This document shows, one piece after another, positions 503-5,199 of a stretch of DNA of 5,199 nucleotides (positions are counted from its first letter, which is position 1; each line of letters starts with the position of its first letter). The DNA is from Deltaproteobacteria bacterium. GTDB taxonomy: Bacteria > Desulfobacterota > Syntrophia > Syntrophales > UBA5619. The stretch covers positions 1-5,199 of the forward strand of contig JAPLJY010000274.1 in assembly GCA_026388345.1 (NCBI GenBank), written 5' to 3'. The translations under genes and the position numbers were made by a program. The notes under the pieces were generated by a model that was given only the letters and a program-made list of their open reading frames with translations, had not been told where the DNA came from and made no database searches.

Positions 503-1792
503 ATGAACCGAAGCTTCCTGCCCGCATTCAAGACGAAAGAGGAACTGGCCGCCATCCAACTGGCCGGCCTGAAATGGACCGTCCGCCACGCCTGGGAGGG
601 GTCGCCCTTCTACCGCAAGAGGCTGTCGGAGGCCGGCGTCACACCGGATCGGATCCAAAGCCTGGTCGATCTCAAGCGCCTCCCCTTCGTCACCGCCCAG
701 GATCTCCGGGAGCACTACCCCTGGCCGCTCCTCTCCGTCCCGATGACGCAGATCGTCCGTCTCCACGCCTCAACGGGAACGACGGGAAAACGAAAGGTCC
801 TCGTCTACACGGCCAGGGACATCGACGACTGGGCCGACATGTTCGCCCGCTGCTACGAAACGGCAGAGCTTTCCCGCGAGGACCGGGTCCAGATCTGCGT
901 CGGCTACGGCGTCTGGACCGCGGGTGTGGGATTTCAGCTCGGCTGCGAGCGGTTTGGGGCGCTCGCGATCCCGGCCGGCCCGGGAAACATCGATCTACAG
1001 ATTCAGTTCCTCGTCGATTTCCAGACGACCGTGCTGTGCTGCACCGCCTCGATGGCGCTGCTGCTGGCCGAGGAGATCGCCAAGCGCGGCCTGCGCGATC
1101 AAATCCATGTGAAGAAGGTGATCTTCGGCGCCGAGCGGTCGAGCGACGCGATGCGCGCAAAGGTGAAAACCCTGACCGGGGCCGACCACGTCTTCGACAT
1201 CCCCGGCCTCACGGAGGTCTACGGCCCCGGCACCGGTCTCGACTGCACCTTTCACACGGGAATCCATTACTGGGCGGACTACTACATCCTGGAGCTCCTC
1301 GACCCGGACACGCTGGAACCGGTTTCCGAGGGCGAGGTGGGCGAGATGGTCTACACGACGCTCCGGAAGGAGGGCGCCCCGCTCATCCGCTACCGCTCCC
1401 GCGACCTGACGCGGGCGATCCCCGGAGAGTGCCCCTGCGGCTCGCCTCTCCCCCGCCACGACCGGATCGTCGGCCGCTCCGACGACATGTTCATCGTCCG
1501 CGGGGTCAACATCTATCCCAGCCACATCGACGAGATCCTCTCCCGCGAGAAGGGGATCGGGAGTGAATTCCAGATCCACCTCGACCACCACGGGGACGGC
1601 AAGGACTACATGGTGCTCAAGGTAGAGCGGGAGGATGCGGGAAGGCCGGAGGCCGACGCCGCACTCGCCGCGAAGATCGAGCGCGCGGTCCGGAAGGAGA
1701 CGCTCGTCAGCGGCAAGGTGGAGATCGTGGACTACCAGAGTCTCCCCCGGACGGAACGCAAGGCGAAGCGCGTCTTCGACCACCGGGGTTGA
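503..1792 (+). CDS. paaK: Phenylacetate-CoA ligase family protein (arylacetate-CoA ligase, AMP-forming)
   Basis: A 429-residue cytosolic member of the adenylate-forming (ANL) superfamily, close to the usual 430-440 residues of PaaK. The family converts an arylacetate, ATP and CoA to arylacetyl-CoA, AMP and PPi. Visible motifs in order: the ATP-binding P-loop HASTGTTGK (88-96; typical form HASSGTTGK); YGVWTAG (135-141); GAERSS (209-214, typical GAEPW/S); DIPGLTEVYGPG (232-243); RYRSRDLT (296-303); CPCG (310-313); GRSDDM (324-329) with hinge and GVNIYPS (334-340); and near the C-terminus PRTERKAKRVFDHR, whose Lys420 fits the conserved adenylation lysine region. AAAGGAG at 491-497, five bases before the ATG, supports the start. 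It lies upstream of the Trp leader and iorAB on the same strand. From that context the acid is more likely an arylacetate linked to amino acids (indoleacetate, phenylacetate) than one of the aerobic paa pathway, none of whose other genes is visible. Substrate is inferred, not read. Confidence 0.93.
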   Translation: MNRSFLPAFKTKEELAAIQLAGLKWTVRHAWEGSPFYRKRLSEAGVTPDRIQSLVDLKRLPFVTAQDLREHYPWPLLSVPMTQIVRLHASTGTTGKRKVLVYTARDIDDWADMFARCYETAELSREDRVQICVGYGVWTAGVGFQLGCERFGALAIPAGPGNIDLQIQFLVDFQTTVLCCTASMALLLAEEIAKRGLRDQIHVKKVIFGAERSSDAMRAKVKTLTGADHVFDIPGLTEVYGPGTGLDCTFHTGIHYWADYYILELLDPDTLEPVSEGEVGEMVYTTLRKEGAPLIRYRSRDLTRAIPGECPCGSPLPRHDRIVGRSDDMFIVRGVNIYPSHIDEILSREKGIGSEFQIHLDHHGDGKDYMVLKVEREDAGRPEADAALAAKIERAVRKETLVSGKVEIVDYQSLPRTERKAKRVFDHRG

Positions 1793-1812: not shown

Positions 1813-1839
1813 GGAGAAAAATGCTTGCATTTTTTCTCC
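1813..1839. repeat. Inverted repeat between paaK and the Trp leader
   Basis: GGAGAAAAATGC (1813-1824) and GCATTTTTTCTCC (1827-1839) are reverse complements except for one extra T in the right arm, and only TT separates them; as RNA the loop would open to about four bases (CTTG). It starts 20 bases after the paaK stop codon. The T-run is inside the right arm and not after it, so this is not a textbook intrinsic terminator. It could be an RNA processing or 3'-stabilising hairpin for paaK, or a DNA operator just upstream of the leader. A TTGCAT hexamer (1825-1830) lies in it, but the region 17 bases on (TAGGAA) is a poor -10 match, so no promoter is called. Confidence 0.5.
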
Positions 1840-1873
1840 GGATCGGATAGGAACCACCCCGGAAGGTGTTTTT

Positions 1874-1948
1874 ATGGGAAACATGAACCGCACGTCGAAC
1901 CTCTGGTGGTGGCGCAGCTCACATAAAGGGAGCGGGGTGCAGGTCTAA
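1874..1948 (+). CDS. Tryptophan leader peptide with three tandem Trp codons
   Basis: A 24-codon ORF in a gap otherwise without genes. It has its own Shine-Dalgarno, AAGGTG at 1863-1868, five bases before the ATG. Codons 11-13 (1904-1912) are TGG TGG TGG inside NLWWWRSS, and the ORF ends with TAA at 1946-1948, 27 bases before the stem of a strong terminator. It holds no Phe or Tyr codon and only one His, so the amino acid bias is specifically Trp. A run of tandem Trp codons followed by Arg, in a short ORF just before a terminator, is the hallmark of trp-operon leader peptides (E. coli trpL has two Trp codons; several proteobacterial leaders have WWW). Its product presumably has no function beyond being translated: ribosome stalling reports tRNA-Trp charging. 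An internal ATG at 1883 is a less likely start. It precedes iorAB here, not trpE, so I leave the symbol blank. Confidence 0.87.
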   Translation: MGNMNRTSNLWWWRSSHKGSGVQV

Positions 1949-1975
1949 GGCGGATCGGTGTTTCACAAAAAAATC

Positions 1976-2009
1976 AAGGCCATGGGCGCACAACCCATGG
2001 CCTTTTTTT
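1976..2009 (+). terminator. Intrinsic terminator (attenuator stem) upstream of iorA
   Basis: AAGGCCATGGG (1976-1986) pairs perfectly with CCCATGGCCTT (1994-2004) around a 7-base loop, followed by an unbroken run of seven T (2003-2009), then A and three more T. It lies between the leader stop codon and iorA, with 103 bases left before the iorA ATG, and not after a full-length gene. That position marks it as a conditional attenuator more than as the end of a paaK transcript, although it could serve both. A run of seven A (1967-1973) precedes the stem, so a weaker reverse-strand terminator is formally possible, but no minus-strand gene ends here. Confidence 0.92.
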
Positions 2010-2032
2010 ATTTGACCGGGAGCGCAACCCGC

Positions 2033-2112: not shown

Positions 2113-3948
2113 ATGATCAATCATTCGGAACAGAGAATCCTGATGGGAAACGAGGCGATCAGCCGCGGCCTCGTCGAGGAGGGTTGCACGCTGGCGGCCG
2201 CCTACCCGGGGACGCCGGCCTCGGAGATCCTCTCTGCGGTCGTCGCCTTCGCGAAGGAGACGGGTGCTGCGCTCCACGCGGAGTGGTCGGTCAACGAGAA
2301 GGTCGCCTGCGAGACGGCGCTCGCCAACAGCATGGCGGGGCGGCGCTCGGCGGTGGCGATGAAGCAGGTGGGGCTGAACGTCGCGGCCGACCCCTTCACC
2401 CGCGCAACCTACCTCGGCGTTAAGGGGGGATTCATCCTGATCGCCGCCGACGACCCGGGACCCCACAGCTCCCAGACGGAGCAGGACAGCCGCCTCTTCG
2501 CCCATTTCGCCAAGGCGCCGGTCTTCGACCCCTCCTCGCCCCGGGAGGCGCGGGAGATGGTGGCCGAGGCCTTCGCGCTCTCAGAGAAGTATGAGATTCC
2601 GGTTATGCTGCGGCCGACGACCCGCGTCTGCCACGCGCGCCAGAATGTTGCCTGCTGCCCGCCGCAGTCCCGGGAGCAGAAGGCCTGTTTTGAAAAGAAC
2701 CCCGGCCGGTGGGTGGCCACGCCGCAGTTCCTCACCGAACTCCACCGTCTCTTGAACGAAAAGCTCGACCGGATCGCTAAGGAGGCGGCCTTCTCCCCCG
2801 TCCTGACCCCCGGCGACGGCGCAAGGCCGCGGATCTGCATCGTCGCCTCCGGCGTCGCCCATGCCCACGCCTCCGAGCTCCTCGATACGCTGGGGCCGGA
2901 GGGAAGAATCGACCTCTACCAGGTTCGCCTCGCCTACCCGCTCCACCAACCGTTCATCGAGGAGATCCGGAAACGCTATGACAAGATCCTCGTCCTCGAG
3001 GAGACGGACGCGGTGATCGAGATGCAGCTTGGCGACAGCCTGGTCTGCGGCCGGGGTTCCGGCGACGTTCCCCGGCAGGGGGAGCTCTCGCCCGACATCA
3101 TCGAAGAGATCCTCCGGAAATTCCTCGATCTCCCCGTGGCTCCGGTTGTTTCGGCCGCCAAGAAGGGGATCCGCCCGTCGCTCTGCGCGGGTTGCGGCCA
3201 CCGGGCGGCCTTCTATGCGATCCGTGACACGTTTCCCGCTGGTATATTTCCCAGTGACATCGGCTGCTATACGCTGGGGATGAACTTCGGCGCCGTGGAC
3301 ACCTGCCACTGCATGGGTGCCTGCATCGGCCAGGGGGCGGGTTTCTACCACGCCTATGCCGCGGGCGGGGCTGATTTCCCGACGATCGTCGTCACGATCG
3401 GGGACTCCACCTTCTTCCATGCGGGGATTCCGGGGCTGATCAACGCCGTCTTCCAGGGGGCGCGTTTCATCCTGGTCATCCTCGACAACGCGACGACCGC
3501 GATGACCGGCCACCAGCCGACCCCCCAACTTGGCGTCCGGGCGGACGGAAGCGAAGGGCGAAAGGTCTTCATTCCCGACCTCGTCCGGGCCTGCGGCGTC
3601 CGGCACCTCCGCGAGATCGACCCCTACGATATCGAGGCCTTCACCACCGCGCTCAAAGAGGCGGACGCCTTCATCCGTTCTCCGGAGGGGGACATCGCCG
3701 TCCTCATCGCCAAACATCCCTGCATCGTGAACAGGGCGGCACGCCAGGCACAGGCGGTATTGACGATGAGCATCACGGACGACTGCGTCGGTTGCCGGGC
3801 CTGCATCGACACCTTCGAATGCCCGGCCATCTTGTTTGATGAAGAGGAAAACAGGGCAGGGATCGATCAAAACCGCTGCATCGGCTGCGGGGTCTGCGTG
3901 CACGTCTGCCCCGCGGGCGCGATCCGGGCGGAAGGGGAAAAGCCATGA
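2113..3948 (+). CDS. iorA: Indolepyruvate:ferredoxin oxidoreductase, alpha subunit
   Basis: A 611-residue thiamine-diphosphate (TPP) and iron-sulfur subunit, within the usual IorA range (about 590-650). With IorB it catalyses arylpyruvate + CoA + oxidised ferredoxin to arylacetyl-CoA + CO2 + reduced ferredoxin, reversibly, in the cytosol. The N-terminal MGNEAISRG (11-19), YPGTP (31-35) and NEKVACETA (61-69) mark the pyrimidine-binding domain; DDPGPHSSQTEQDSR (113-127) is typical of IorA. The TPP-binding part has CAGCGH (358-363), GDSTFFHAGIPGL (430-442) and DNATTAMTGHQ (458-468). The C-terminus carries two 4Fe-4S sites: Cys558, 561, 564, 570 (CxxCxxCx5CP) and Cys589, 592, 595, 599 (CxxCxxCxxxCP). 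All key residues are present. AAGGG at 2101-2105, seven bases before the ATG, supports this start; Met11 is the alternative. It overlaps iorB by four bases and lies behind the Trp attenuator, so its expression probably rises when tryptophan is scarce. Side-chain preference (indole, phenyl, imidazole) cannot be read. Confidence 0.96.
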   Translation: MINHSEQRILMGNEAISRGLVEEGCTLAAAYPGTPASEILSAVVAFAKETGAALHAEWSVNEKVACETALANSMAGRRSAVAMKQVGLNVAADPFTRATYLGVKGGFILIAADDPGPHSSQTEQDSRLFAHFAKAPVFDPSSPREAREMVAEAFALSEKYEIPVMLRPTTRVCHARQNVACCPPQSREQKACFEKNPGRWVATPQFLTELHRLLNEKLDRIAKEAAFSPVLTPGDGARPRICIVASGVAHAHASELLDTLGPEGRIDLYQVRLAYPLHQPFIEEIRKRYDKILVLEETDAVIEMQLGDSLVCGRGSGDVPRQGELSPDIIEEILRKFLDLPVAPVVSAAKKGIRPSLCAGCGHRAAFYAIRDTFPAGIFPSDIGCYTLGMNFGAVDTCHCMGACIGQGAGFYHAYAAGGADFPTIVVTIGDSTFFHAGIPGLINAVFQGARFILVILDNATTAMTGHQPTPQLGVRADGSEGRKVFIPDLVRACGVRHLREIDPYDIEAFTTALKEADAFIRSPEGDIAVLIAKHPCIVNRAARQAQAVLTMSITDDCVGCRACIDTFECPAILFDEEENRAGIDQNRCIGCGVCVHVCPAGAIRAEGEKP

Positions 3949-4442
3949 AACAGCAGATCGTCGTCAGCGGCATCGGCGGCCAGGGGGTCCTCTTCGTGAC
4001 GCGCATCCTCGCCGAGGCCGCCATCGAAAAGGGGCTGGAGGTTCTCACCTCGGAGACGCACGGGATGGCGATGCGCGGCGGGACGGTGATCTCCCACATC
4101 AAGGTCGGCCCCTTCACGAGCCCGCTGATCCGGACGGGACAGGCCGACATCGGCCTCTTCCTCCACGCGGGAAACCTGGAGGTCCACCGGGGGTTCCTGA
4201 AACCTGGAGGAGCGATCTACATGAATGAGGCCAATGGTGGGGACAAAGAGGCGATCGACGCGACGCGCATCGCCCGGGAACACGGGTCGCTCGTCATCGC
4301 GAACCTGGTGCTGCTGGGGTTTGCCGTCCGTCAGGGAAAGTTTTTCTGCGATGCGGCCACCGTCGAGGCGGTCCTGATGCGGATCTCACCGGAAAAGCAG
4401 CTCGAAACGAACCTGACAGGCTTCCGCCTGGGGGTTGCATGA
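3945..4442 (+). CDS. iorB: Indolepyruvate:ferredoxin oxidoreductase, beta subunit
   Basis: The start overlaps the iorA stop as ATGA, a sign of translational coupling, with AAGGGG (3932-3937) as ribosome-binding site inside the iorA 3' end. The 165 residues are the pyruvate-ferredoxin oxidoreductase gamma-type domain that completes the enzyme. The nucleotide-type glycine motif GIGGQG (9-14) follows the first strand, then SETHGMAMRGG (36-46), the family's most conserved stretch, and SPLIRTGQADIGLF (59-72). IorB proteins are commonly about 190-200 residues. This one is short because the middle (about 95-115) is reduced; the end, ETNLTGFRLG (154-163), matches the usual C-terminal NL.AF..G pattern, so it is not truncated. 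It has no iron-sulfur site, as expected, since those are on IorA. Confidence 0.94.
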   Translation: MKQQIVVSGIGGQGVLFVTRILAEAAIEKGLEVLTSETHGMAMRGGTVISHIKVGPFTSPLIRTGQADIGLFLHAGNLEVHRGFLKPGGAIYMNEANGGDKEAIDATRIAREHGSLVIANLVLLGFAVRQGKFFCDAATVEAVLMRISPEKQLETNLTGFRLGVA

Positions 4443-4467
4443 CGGGAGATGCCTCTTGCCGGGCCGC

Positions 4468-4592
4468 GGATCTTTTTCCGACCATGTGCATCCTCGCTCC
4501 GCTGCCGGAAAACGAACTCGCGCCTGAAGGCGCTCAAACATGTTTTCCGGCGGTCGCTTCGCTGTGGTGGCATGGTGCCCGGAAAAATCTCC
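4468..4592. repeat. Nested palindromic intergenic element (REP/MITE-like)
   Basis: Three inverted repeats lie one inside the other in the iorB-dctP gap. Core: GCGCC (4520-4524) and GGCGC (4529-4533) around TGAA. Middle: GCCGGAAAAC (4504-4513) and GTTTTCCGGC (4542-4551), ten perfect pairs. Outer: TTTTTCCG plus ACCATG (4473-4486) with CATGGT plus CGGAAAAA (4571-4587), interrupted by a 3-base insertion, and three more pairs at the ends (4468-4470 with 4590-4592). The middle palindrome is flanked by an 11-bp direct repeat differing at one base (TCGCTCCGCTG 4494-4504, TCGCTTCGCTG 4554-4564). There is no T-tract after the outer stem. Short ORFs crossing it have no coding character. It resembles repetitive extragenic palindromes or a remnant of a small non-autonomous mobile element. 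It might also act as a 3' stabiliser or partial terminator between iorB and dctP. Confidence 0.6.
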
Positions 4593-4606
4593 AATGCGGT
4601 CCTTGC

Positions 4607-4638
4607 AAAGGGTACCTCCCTTTATGGGGTGGGGTTTT
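4607..4638 (+). other. Small hairpin(s) with T-run upstream of dctP, weak terminator candidate
   Basis: AAAGGG (4607-4612) can pair with CCCTTT (4618-4623). Alternatively CCTCCC (4615-4620) can pair with GGGG-GG (4626-4632, one bulged T and one G-T pair), which is followed by GGTTTT ending at 4638. The two stems exclude each other. The second would be a short, weak intrinsic terminator about 28 bases before the dctP start codon. The T-run is only four bases, so I do not call it a terminator. Confidence 0.25.
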
Positions 4639-4665
4639 AGAATAAGAAGTTAAAGGAGGCGAAAG

Positions 4666-5199
4666 ATGAAAATCGATGCTCTGTTCAAGACAATCCTGAC
4701 GATTCTGTGTCTGGCCATTCCGGTCGCACTTGTGCCGGCGCCGGTGAATGCCGCGCCCGTCACGCTCACCTACGCGAACTTCCCGCCGGCCTCGACCTTC
4801 CCCTGCGTCCAGATGGAGCGGTGGGTCAAGGAGATCGAGAAACGGACGAACGGCCAGGTGAAGATCAACACCTTCCCCGGCGGGACGCTGCTTCCGGCCA
4901 AGAACATCTTCGACGGCGTCATCGCCGGGACGGCCGACATCGGGAACTTCGCGATGAGCTACCAACCGGGGCGGTTTCCCGTCTCGGAGGCGGTGGATCT
5001 GCCGCTCGGCTTCCCGAACGCCCGCGTGGCGAGCCTCGTCCTCACCGACCTGATCGACAAGTACAAACCGAAGGAGTTCGAGAAGGTGAAGATCCTGACG
5101 CTGTTCACCTGCCCGCCGGCGGATTTCATGACGAGCAAACCCGTCCGGACGCTGAAGGACCTGAAGGGAATGGAACTCCGCGTCTCCGGGACCGGCGCC
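4666..5199 (+). CDS. dctP: TRAP transporter solute receptor, DctP family, N-terminal part
   Basis: 178 codons run to the right edge without a stop, roughly half of a family protein (about 330-360 residues). AAAGGAGG (4652-4659), six bases before the ATG, fixes the start. Residues 1-29 are a Sec signal peptide: MKIDALFK, a hydrophobic core (9-23), and VNA as cleavage site before APVTLTYANF. The mature chain shows the family pattern: a first beta strand VTLTYAN (32-38), a long helix VQMERWVKEIEKRTNGQVKI (48-67), FPGGTLLP (70-77), FDGVIAGTADIGNF (82-95), and LKDLKGMELRVSGTGA (163-178). Arg172 there corresponds to the conserved arginine that binds the ligand carboxylate in TRAP receptors. The protein works in the periplasm and passes an organic acid to a DctQ/DctM membrane pair, expected to the right of the window. 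Being downstream of paaK-iorAB, it may carry an aryl acid or aryl-keto acid, but this is inference from position. It is 223 bases from iorB, so co-transcription is uncertain. Confidence 0.92.
   Translation, partial: MKIDALFKTILTILCLAIPVALVPAPVNAAPVTLTYANFPPASTFPCVQMERWVKEIEKRTNGQVKINTFPGGTLLPAKNIFDGVIAGTADIGNFAMSYQPGRFPVSEAVDLPLGFPNARVASLVLTDLIDKYKPKEFEKVKILTLFTCPPADFMTSKPVRTLKDLKGMELRVSGTGA

Follow-up and report, generated by a model that had tools for sequence, protein, structure and literature searches.

The window, that is the whole stretch of 5,199 nucleotides of DNA analysed here, carried on its plus strand a gene for a paaK-type arylacetate-CoA ligase (503..1792), the genes iorA (2113..3948, TIGR03336) and iorB (3945..4442, NF004916 and PF01558) for the alpha and beta subunits of indolepyruvate:ferredoxin oxidoreductase, and dctP (4666..5199, cut by the window end) for a TRAP solute-binding protein of the aromatic-acid or Dde_0634 kind (PF03480). 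IorA, IorB, and PaaK all scored under their NCBIfam cut-offs. IorA matched TIGR03336 over its full length with 639.3 bits (cut-off 650.9, E 5e-192), IorB matched NF004916 with 205 bits (cut-off 227, E 7.5e-61), and PaaK, a putative indoleacetate-CoA ligase encoded 5' to the leader described below, matched TIGR02155 with 390 bits (cut-off 646, E 8e-117) and PDB 4r1l at E 1.7e-105. On the minus strand, positions 3-248 contained the first part of a divergently oriented gene that encodes an ABC binding protein like UgpB.

Between paaK and iorA lay a leader ORF of 24 codons (1874..1948, plus strand) with the Shine-Dalgarno GGAAGG at 1861..1866 (plus strand). Its translation, MGNMNRTSNLWWWRSSHKGSGVQV*, was free of Phe and Tyr codons and included a Trp-Trp-Trp run, TGGTGGTGG (1904..1912, plus strand), which was kept in divergent relatives and is the candidate regulatory element. 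The stop codon TAA (1946-1948) stood 27 nt 5' to the stem of an intrinsic terminator (1976..2009, plus strand), consisting of a hairpin (1976-2004) with 11 perfect pairs and a 7-nt loop and of a T run at 2003-2009. The initial annotation had described this ORF, its Shine-Dalgarno, its three Trp codons, the lack of Phe and Tyr, the stop-to-stem distance, the perfect 11-bp stem, and the seven T, and each of these points was correct when the sequence was re-read. A promoter-like element (TTGCAT, 17 nt, TAGGAA; 1825..1853, plus strand) was picked out by eye as a candidate promoter. A similar TTG-17-TA element occurred at the same place in relatives (alignment A1), the copy in the window being poor, and a sigma-70 scan of the window gave no site above threshold.

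A strict scan was applied to 1.50 Mb comprising both strands of the window and of 80 fetched iorA loci (L001-L080). A match required TGGTGGTGG within a short ORF and, behind that ORF, a perfect stem (9 bp or more) with a T run after it. The scan returned 18 matches representing 14 places (WWWW was counted twice), all of them at the iorA 5' end, and no match elsewhere in the 1.50 Mb. A Markov-resampled control of 11.9 Mb gave 0 matches. Three of the 17 leaders known by then (L005, L022, and L025) were missed by the scan. The Trp leader with its terminator before iorAB was confirmed as real, far beyond chance. A Trp run was present in every leader locus found, as WWW or WWWW in most leaders, as WRWW in L022, and as WW in L118, and the leader peptides (for example NLWWWRSSHK, TFWWWQSINK, TWWWWRKIKG, and TAWWWIMTSS) had little in common except Trp. 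Among 4227 Rfam families, including the enteric Trp leader and the T-box, the window had no match at E up to 1.

We then compared relatives, nearly all of which were metagenome-assembled genomes. Three of the 80 fetched loci began inside iorA; of the remaining 77 loci with the iorA start present, 16 had a Trp leader 5' to iorA. In the order that includes the Smithella genome (L012, G009), a threshold of E 1e-150 for a close iorA selected 22 of 155 genomes. Of these 22, 20 had the leader, that of G012 being read from L024, and two, G031 and G074, were without it. In a second class, the leader occurred in two genomes, G013 and one of the two G200 copies, and the L118 leader of this class combined its WW with a 16-bp terminator. 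In an IorA tree of 49 rows, a single clade of 30 (98/91) contained every one of the 23 leader rows, together with seven leaderless ones. Since five changes were needed on the tree, one gain with losses and several gains both fit. The iorA of L033 (5001-), excluded from the tree, was broken in frame after 289 codons behind an intact leader, which may reflect assembly error or decay.

The initial annotation had named loci that keep the terminator and lose the ORF or the Trp codons as evidence against an attenuator. No such locus was seen inside the leader-bearing clade, where the seven leaderless rows had no strong terminator within 500 nt 5' of iorA; one of them, L030, had a weak hairpin of 10 pairs, 3 of them G-C. 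Outside this clade, in a leaderless sister clade, L015, L016, and L023 had a terminator-like hairpin of unrelated sequence (CCCCCCTTT...AAAGGGGGG, with a T run) 81-91 nt before iorA and no Trp leader. Short ORFs with Trp-Trp or Trp-X-Trp in L015, L027, L029, L048, and L056 had no matching terminator behind them and were judged to be chance. The proposed comparison of the gap between relatives bore out the idea of a conserved device: the Trp leader and a covarying terminator were conserved, and the antiterminator covaried more weakly.

Covariation was measured in an alignment (A3) of 14 ior and 3 trpE leaders. The terminator, which is intrinsic and lies between the leader and the structural gene, was paired in 96.0% of cells, compared with 86.2% in shuffles. 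It contained 29 double-change cells, compared with 8.8 in shuffles, and 0 of 500 shuffles reached this number. Compensatory change was widespread in it: both sides were changed in 9 of 12 pairs, a figure likewise reached by 0 of 500 shuffles. For the antiterminator, the initial annotation had drawn a pairing of 1938-1946 with 1976-1984, which was right in part; the register common to relatives differed, pairing 1943-1947 with 1983-1987 and 1949-1951 with 1979-1981 and adding 1937-1940 with 1988-1991 across a 2-nt bulge. Segment 2, the 5' strand of the antiterminator (1937..1951, plus strand), therefore spans the stop codon, and segment 3 (1979..1991, plus strand) is common to antiterminator and terminator, as the duplex and covariation tests indicated. 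In A3, 75.9% of the antiterminator was paired, compared with 71.8% in shuffles (as high in 1 of 500) and 29-46% for slid copies. Its covariation score reached 0.318, compared with 0.259 in shuffles (as high in 2 of 500) and no more than 0.178 for slid copies. The register tested came from two sequences of the alignment (the window and L012), which favours it over slid controls. There were 15 double-change cells (7.7 in shuffles, with 0 of 500 reaching 15), sliding the register by -2 gave 14, and the five antiterminator pairs changed on both sides were no excess over shuffles (313 of 500 as high).

The antiterminator duplex of the window had an energy of -16.4 kcal/mol (p = 0.075 versus shuffles), which is weak evidence alone, so the case for an antiterminator was made by the set of relatives. 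Among 16 representative ior leaders, nine formed duplexes better than those of shuffles at p<0.05 (Fisher 2e-12). Cognate ior strands paired at -18.0 kcal/mol, compared with -14.9 kcal/mol when strands of different loci were combined (permutation p 1e-4). By duplex energy, the trpE leaders gave eight of eight (permutation p 0.002). Not significant alone were the window, L005, L006, L025, L105, and L106 (p 0.05-0.28 for the latter five), and in L011 the antiterminator was absent (p 0.62). Because the stop position shifts between loci, this test was anchored on the Trp run and superseded a version in which segment 2 was fixed to the stop codon; that version had given Fisher 1.6e-9 and permutation p 0.004 for ior, and Fisher 2.4e-5 and permutation p 0.0025 for trpE. 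In four trpE leaders (L083, L085, L086, and L093), two terminator-like hairpins followed one another in the stretch from the Trp leader to trpE, and of these the first paired well with the antiterminator strand and the second did not. The first hairpin was used at these loci, a choice made once the second was seen not to pair. Across the set, then, an antiterminator sharing the 5' arm of the terminator, and so exclusive with it, was found, weakly in the window and not in L011.

The RNA was also modelled with the ribosome at different positions. With a ribosome placed at the Trp codons of a truncated RNA, each of the 17 ior leaders modelled formed an antiterminator, with 6 to 19 expected pairs. 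By geometry, a ribosome at the stop codon would cover the antiterminator strand, leaving 0 to 0.7 expected 2:3 pairs in the 17 ior leaders (maximum in L106). In full-length RNA at equilibrium with the ribosome stalled, the terminator was favoured in most loci (0.97 in the window), the exceptions being L005 (0.15) and L001 (0.67); the switch would therefore have to be kinetic. Attenuators of trp operons are generally held to be kinetic switches. The protector hairpin of segments 1:2 (1912..1940, plus strand) was moderate in the window, strong in L009, L011, L101, and L105, and near absent in L012, L025, L099, and L106, these counts being rough because the two ranges overlap by 3 nt. The region 1863-2013 of the window had a folding z of -3.3. 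In the minimum-energy fold of the leader, the ORF start region paired with the stretch just 5' of the terminator (1868-1975). Taken together, the leader ORF with its Trp run, the terminator, the antiterminator, and the position of the stop codon fitted the structure of a ribosome-mediated attenuator of the trp type, a conclusion that the comparison of relatives supported.

The initial annotation had placed this device before iorAB and not before trp biosynthesis genes. This was true of the window; in relatives the device was also found before trpE. A TrpE-family match was present in 9 of the 14 leader-bearing genomes searched (7 over cut-off), the remaining 5 being without a match in what are draft assemblies; with these TrpE matches, Trp need not come by salvage. 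All eight loci with a readable trpE 5' end had a Trp leader. At an E threshold of 0.01, a covariance model (R1) built from the ior and trpE leaders gave matches in 153 of the order's 155 genomes, a figure that includes weak matches and rests on rough E-values. From these, 40 matches were picked by hand (the second per genome and strong ones), a selection whose proportions are not a census. The downstream gene was trpE in 27, paaK in 2, trpB in 1, a TrpB-like gene in 1, DAHP synthase in 2, trpD in 1, and a PF13557-type gene in 5 (4 genomes), and one match had no assigned gene. Behind Trp-leader-like elements we found trpB in L188, the TrpB-like gene in L199, and in L198 an AsnC-type domain fused to TrpD. 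The two DAHP synthases were in L197, identified by a family model, and in L189, identified by eye; the L197 match lacked a Trp ORF and could be a chance one. The distance from the leader to trpE in L210 was 1.3 kb. With leaders at trpE and other Trp genes, the ior leader was placed in a tryptophan regulon. Within the same genomes, the attenuators of trpE resembled the ior leaders in their tail (GGUCUGUCCACCGC, versus GGUCUGUUCACCGC in some ior leaders) and in a GCCGUGG-type terminator arm, and differed in their downstream genes and in that the arm was changed to GGCCAUGGGC in the clade of the window.

The five PF13557-type genes (L192, L193, L194, L195, and L196, from G101, G102, G104, and G105) encoded proteins of the Phenol_MetA_deg type behind WWW or WWWW leaders; the family assignment was tested for L192 and L194, and the others were alike by eye. 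These proteins are possibly an outer-membrane door for aromatic acids. In two genomes paaK had its own Trp leader and terminator (L180:914-1153 in G121, and L184, minus strand, in G012). In the G121 leader, the stop codon of the ORF came immediately behind WWW, a position that may make the switch less effective.

The neighbourhood 3' of iorB pointed to a transporter. A dctP gene was located within 500 nt 3' of iorB in 21 of 23 leader loci versus 0 of 19 leaderless loci, counted in the available sequence, which is less than 300 nt after iorB for leaderless L018, L026, and L030; L110, where the contig ends in iorA, was uncounted. The leader-bearing G013 and G200 had no dctP in the 531 and 931 nt 3' of iorB, and leaderless L034 had dctP 1.9 kb 5' of iorA. 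The DctP product was 44-50% identical to solved relatives including Dde_0634; a full-length dctP homologue in L001, 96% identical over the part in the window, matched PDB 4n6d, 4pgn, and 4nap, the last of which is DDE_0634. The structures 4pgn and 4pgp contain indolepyruvate and indoleacetate. By sequence and fold, DctP was closely akin to TRAP proteins of the Dde_0634 kind. Dde_0634 itself was reported to bind indole-3-acetate (IAA) (excerpts of PMC9973260 and PMC9543091), which is a candidate ligand for the DctP of these operons. Close dctP homologues were found in 89 of the 395 genomes of the phylum; 29 of these loci, the query's own apart, were scanned over roughly 1.5 kb, and none had a convincing Trp leader. 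Several of these loci had some WW ORF, and only that of L131 was just before dctP, without a terminator. With homologues so widespread and the scanned loci lacking the leader, the family may carry other aromatic acids. In the window the iorB-dctP gap was 223 nt, so dctP may have its own promoter; the regulated unit probably includes dctP and its partners through co-transcription. This gap (4443-4665), most of which was kept in L001 as judged by eye, contained a short Trp-Trp ORF as well as a palindrome, CCGGAAAAC...GTTTTCCGG.

Sequence comparison established the device with its conservation and covariation, its occurrence also at trpE, the genes around it, and the kinship of the binding protein, and these findings suggested the following course of events. 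When charged tRNA-Trp is plentiful, the ribosome would reach the stop codon and cover segment 2, the terminator would form, and transcription would end before iorA. When Trp is short, the ribosome would stall on 1904-1912, segment 2 would pair with 1979-1991 before the 3' arm of the terminator is made, and RNA polymerase would read through into iorA. The structural tests, the covariation, and the trpE leaders of the same genomes lent support to the earlier proposal that iorAB would be expressed on Trp starvation. The attenuator (1874-2009) would govern iorAB; for most relatives, its control probably extends to the TRAP transporter genes that come next.

The purpose of such control would be Trp supply through salvage. 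The TRAP transporter would import indoleacetate or a related aryl acid, PaaK would form the CoA thioester of indoleacetate, IorAB working reductively would convert indoleacetyl-CoA and CO2 to indolepyruvate, and an aminotransferase would convert indolepyruvate to Trp. With Trp codons, an importer of the indoleacetate type, and a PaaK-type ligase side by side, reductive IorAB is the simplest account. Rumen bacteria make Trp from indoleacetate. In Methanococcus maripaludis, IOR makes aromatic amino acids from aryl acids, according to excerpts of PMC3462420 and PMC4162585; that pathway is like the one proposed here in this respect and unlike it in being archaeal and in that the excerpts describe neither a Trp attenuator nor a TRAP importer. 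We infer that iorAB is probably anabolic here, as opposed to the usual catabolic view. As a whole, a ribosome-mediated attenuator of the trp type before iorAB that serves salvage of Trp from indoleacetate is the explanation in which we place high confidence. We lean, with less assurance, towards a wider reading in which a Trp-starvation regulon of these anaerobes scavenges environmental indoleacetate (auxin) and related aryl acids and, when charged tRNA-Trp falls, rebuilds Trp from indoleacetate that was excreted. Its parts would be DctPQM, the PF13557 outer-membrane-type protein (four genomes), PaaK, and IorAB, each standing behind trpE-like attenuators in one genome or another.

Other explanations were weighed against salvage. 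The attenuator could be a true trp attenuator while IorAB works oxidatively or on several aromatic 2-oxoacids, in redox balance or phenylacetate handling for example, with Trp reporting a general aromatic shortage. Excerpts of PMC13290082 describe IOR-type enzymes of anaerobes that oxidise aromatic 2-oxoacids, including related enzymes used oxidatively by gut acetogens, and the wide spread of close dctP homologues, with none of the 29 scanned under a convincing Trp leader, agrees with this account. However, switching on at Trp exhaustion makes little sense for Trp breakdown, and the same device stood before trpE, trpB, and DAHP synthase and, in two genomes, before paaK; we regard an oxidative role as unlikely.

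The two remaining accounts concern the device itself. A stalling switch of the tnaC kind, in which the nascent peptide senses Trp and iorAB is induced for Trp catabolism, would explain Trp codons in a leader before a gene able to act in Trp breakdown. Leaders of the tnaC type have a peptide sequence conserved beyond the Trp codon. Here, in contrast, the peptides diverged freely outside the Trp run, termination was intrinsic with a covarying hairpin, and the device occurred before trpE in the same genomes, which leaves such a switch very improbable. That the hairpin merely terminates paaK and the WWW ORF is chance would suit the position of paaK, which ends upstream, and the terminator-like character of the hairpin on the minus strand too. 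This is scarcely credible in view of the empty 11.9 Mb control, the Trp run at every leader locus, and the cognate antiterminators; moreover, L005-L007 had the leader with the nearest paaK at least 3 kb upstream.

Attenuators of the trpL type are described for trp operons of Proteobacteria and for Corynebacterium and Streptomyces (excerpts of PMC1262725). The device before iorAB shared with them a leader peptide with repeated UGG, one strand common to antiterminator and terminator, and a U run, and differed in controlling iorAB, probably dctPQM, and in two genomes paaK, besides trp genes. Among the best matches in the open-licence literature there was no report of Trp attenuation of an ior, paaK, or TRAP operon, in line with the statement of the initial annotation that it knew of no described case for iorAB. 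Ribosome-mediated trp attenuation has long been known, and as far as we found, the target and the implied metabolic role are new.

The codons of an attenuator name the end product of the genes it controls, and the Trp run would thereby label both substrate and direction of the oxidoreductase. Such a label is useful because the sequence of this oxidoreductase family does not reveal the substrate; excerpts of PMC13290082 state that no clear motif predicting indolepyruvate oxidation was found. The finding points to a reductive salvage of Trp from indoleacetate in bacteria with a dedicated importer and opens this salvage to tests on cloned leaders and purified enzymes. It also suggests that members of anoxic communities cross-feed indoleacetate.

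Just 3' of the terminator, at 2032-2060 of the window, a GC-rich palindromic repeat-like element, CAAGCCCCGCCCTGTGGGCAGGGAGCTTC, was noticed by eye. Elements like CAAGCCCCGCCCTGTGGGCAGGGAGCTTC were also seen by eye 5' of iorA in L003 and 5' of the leader in L101.
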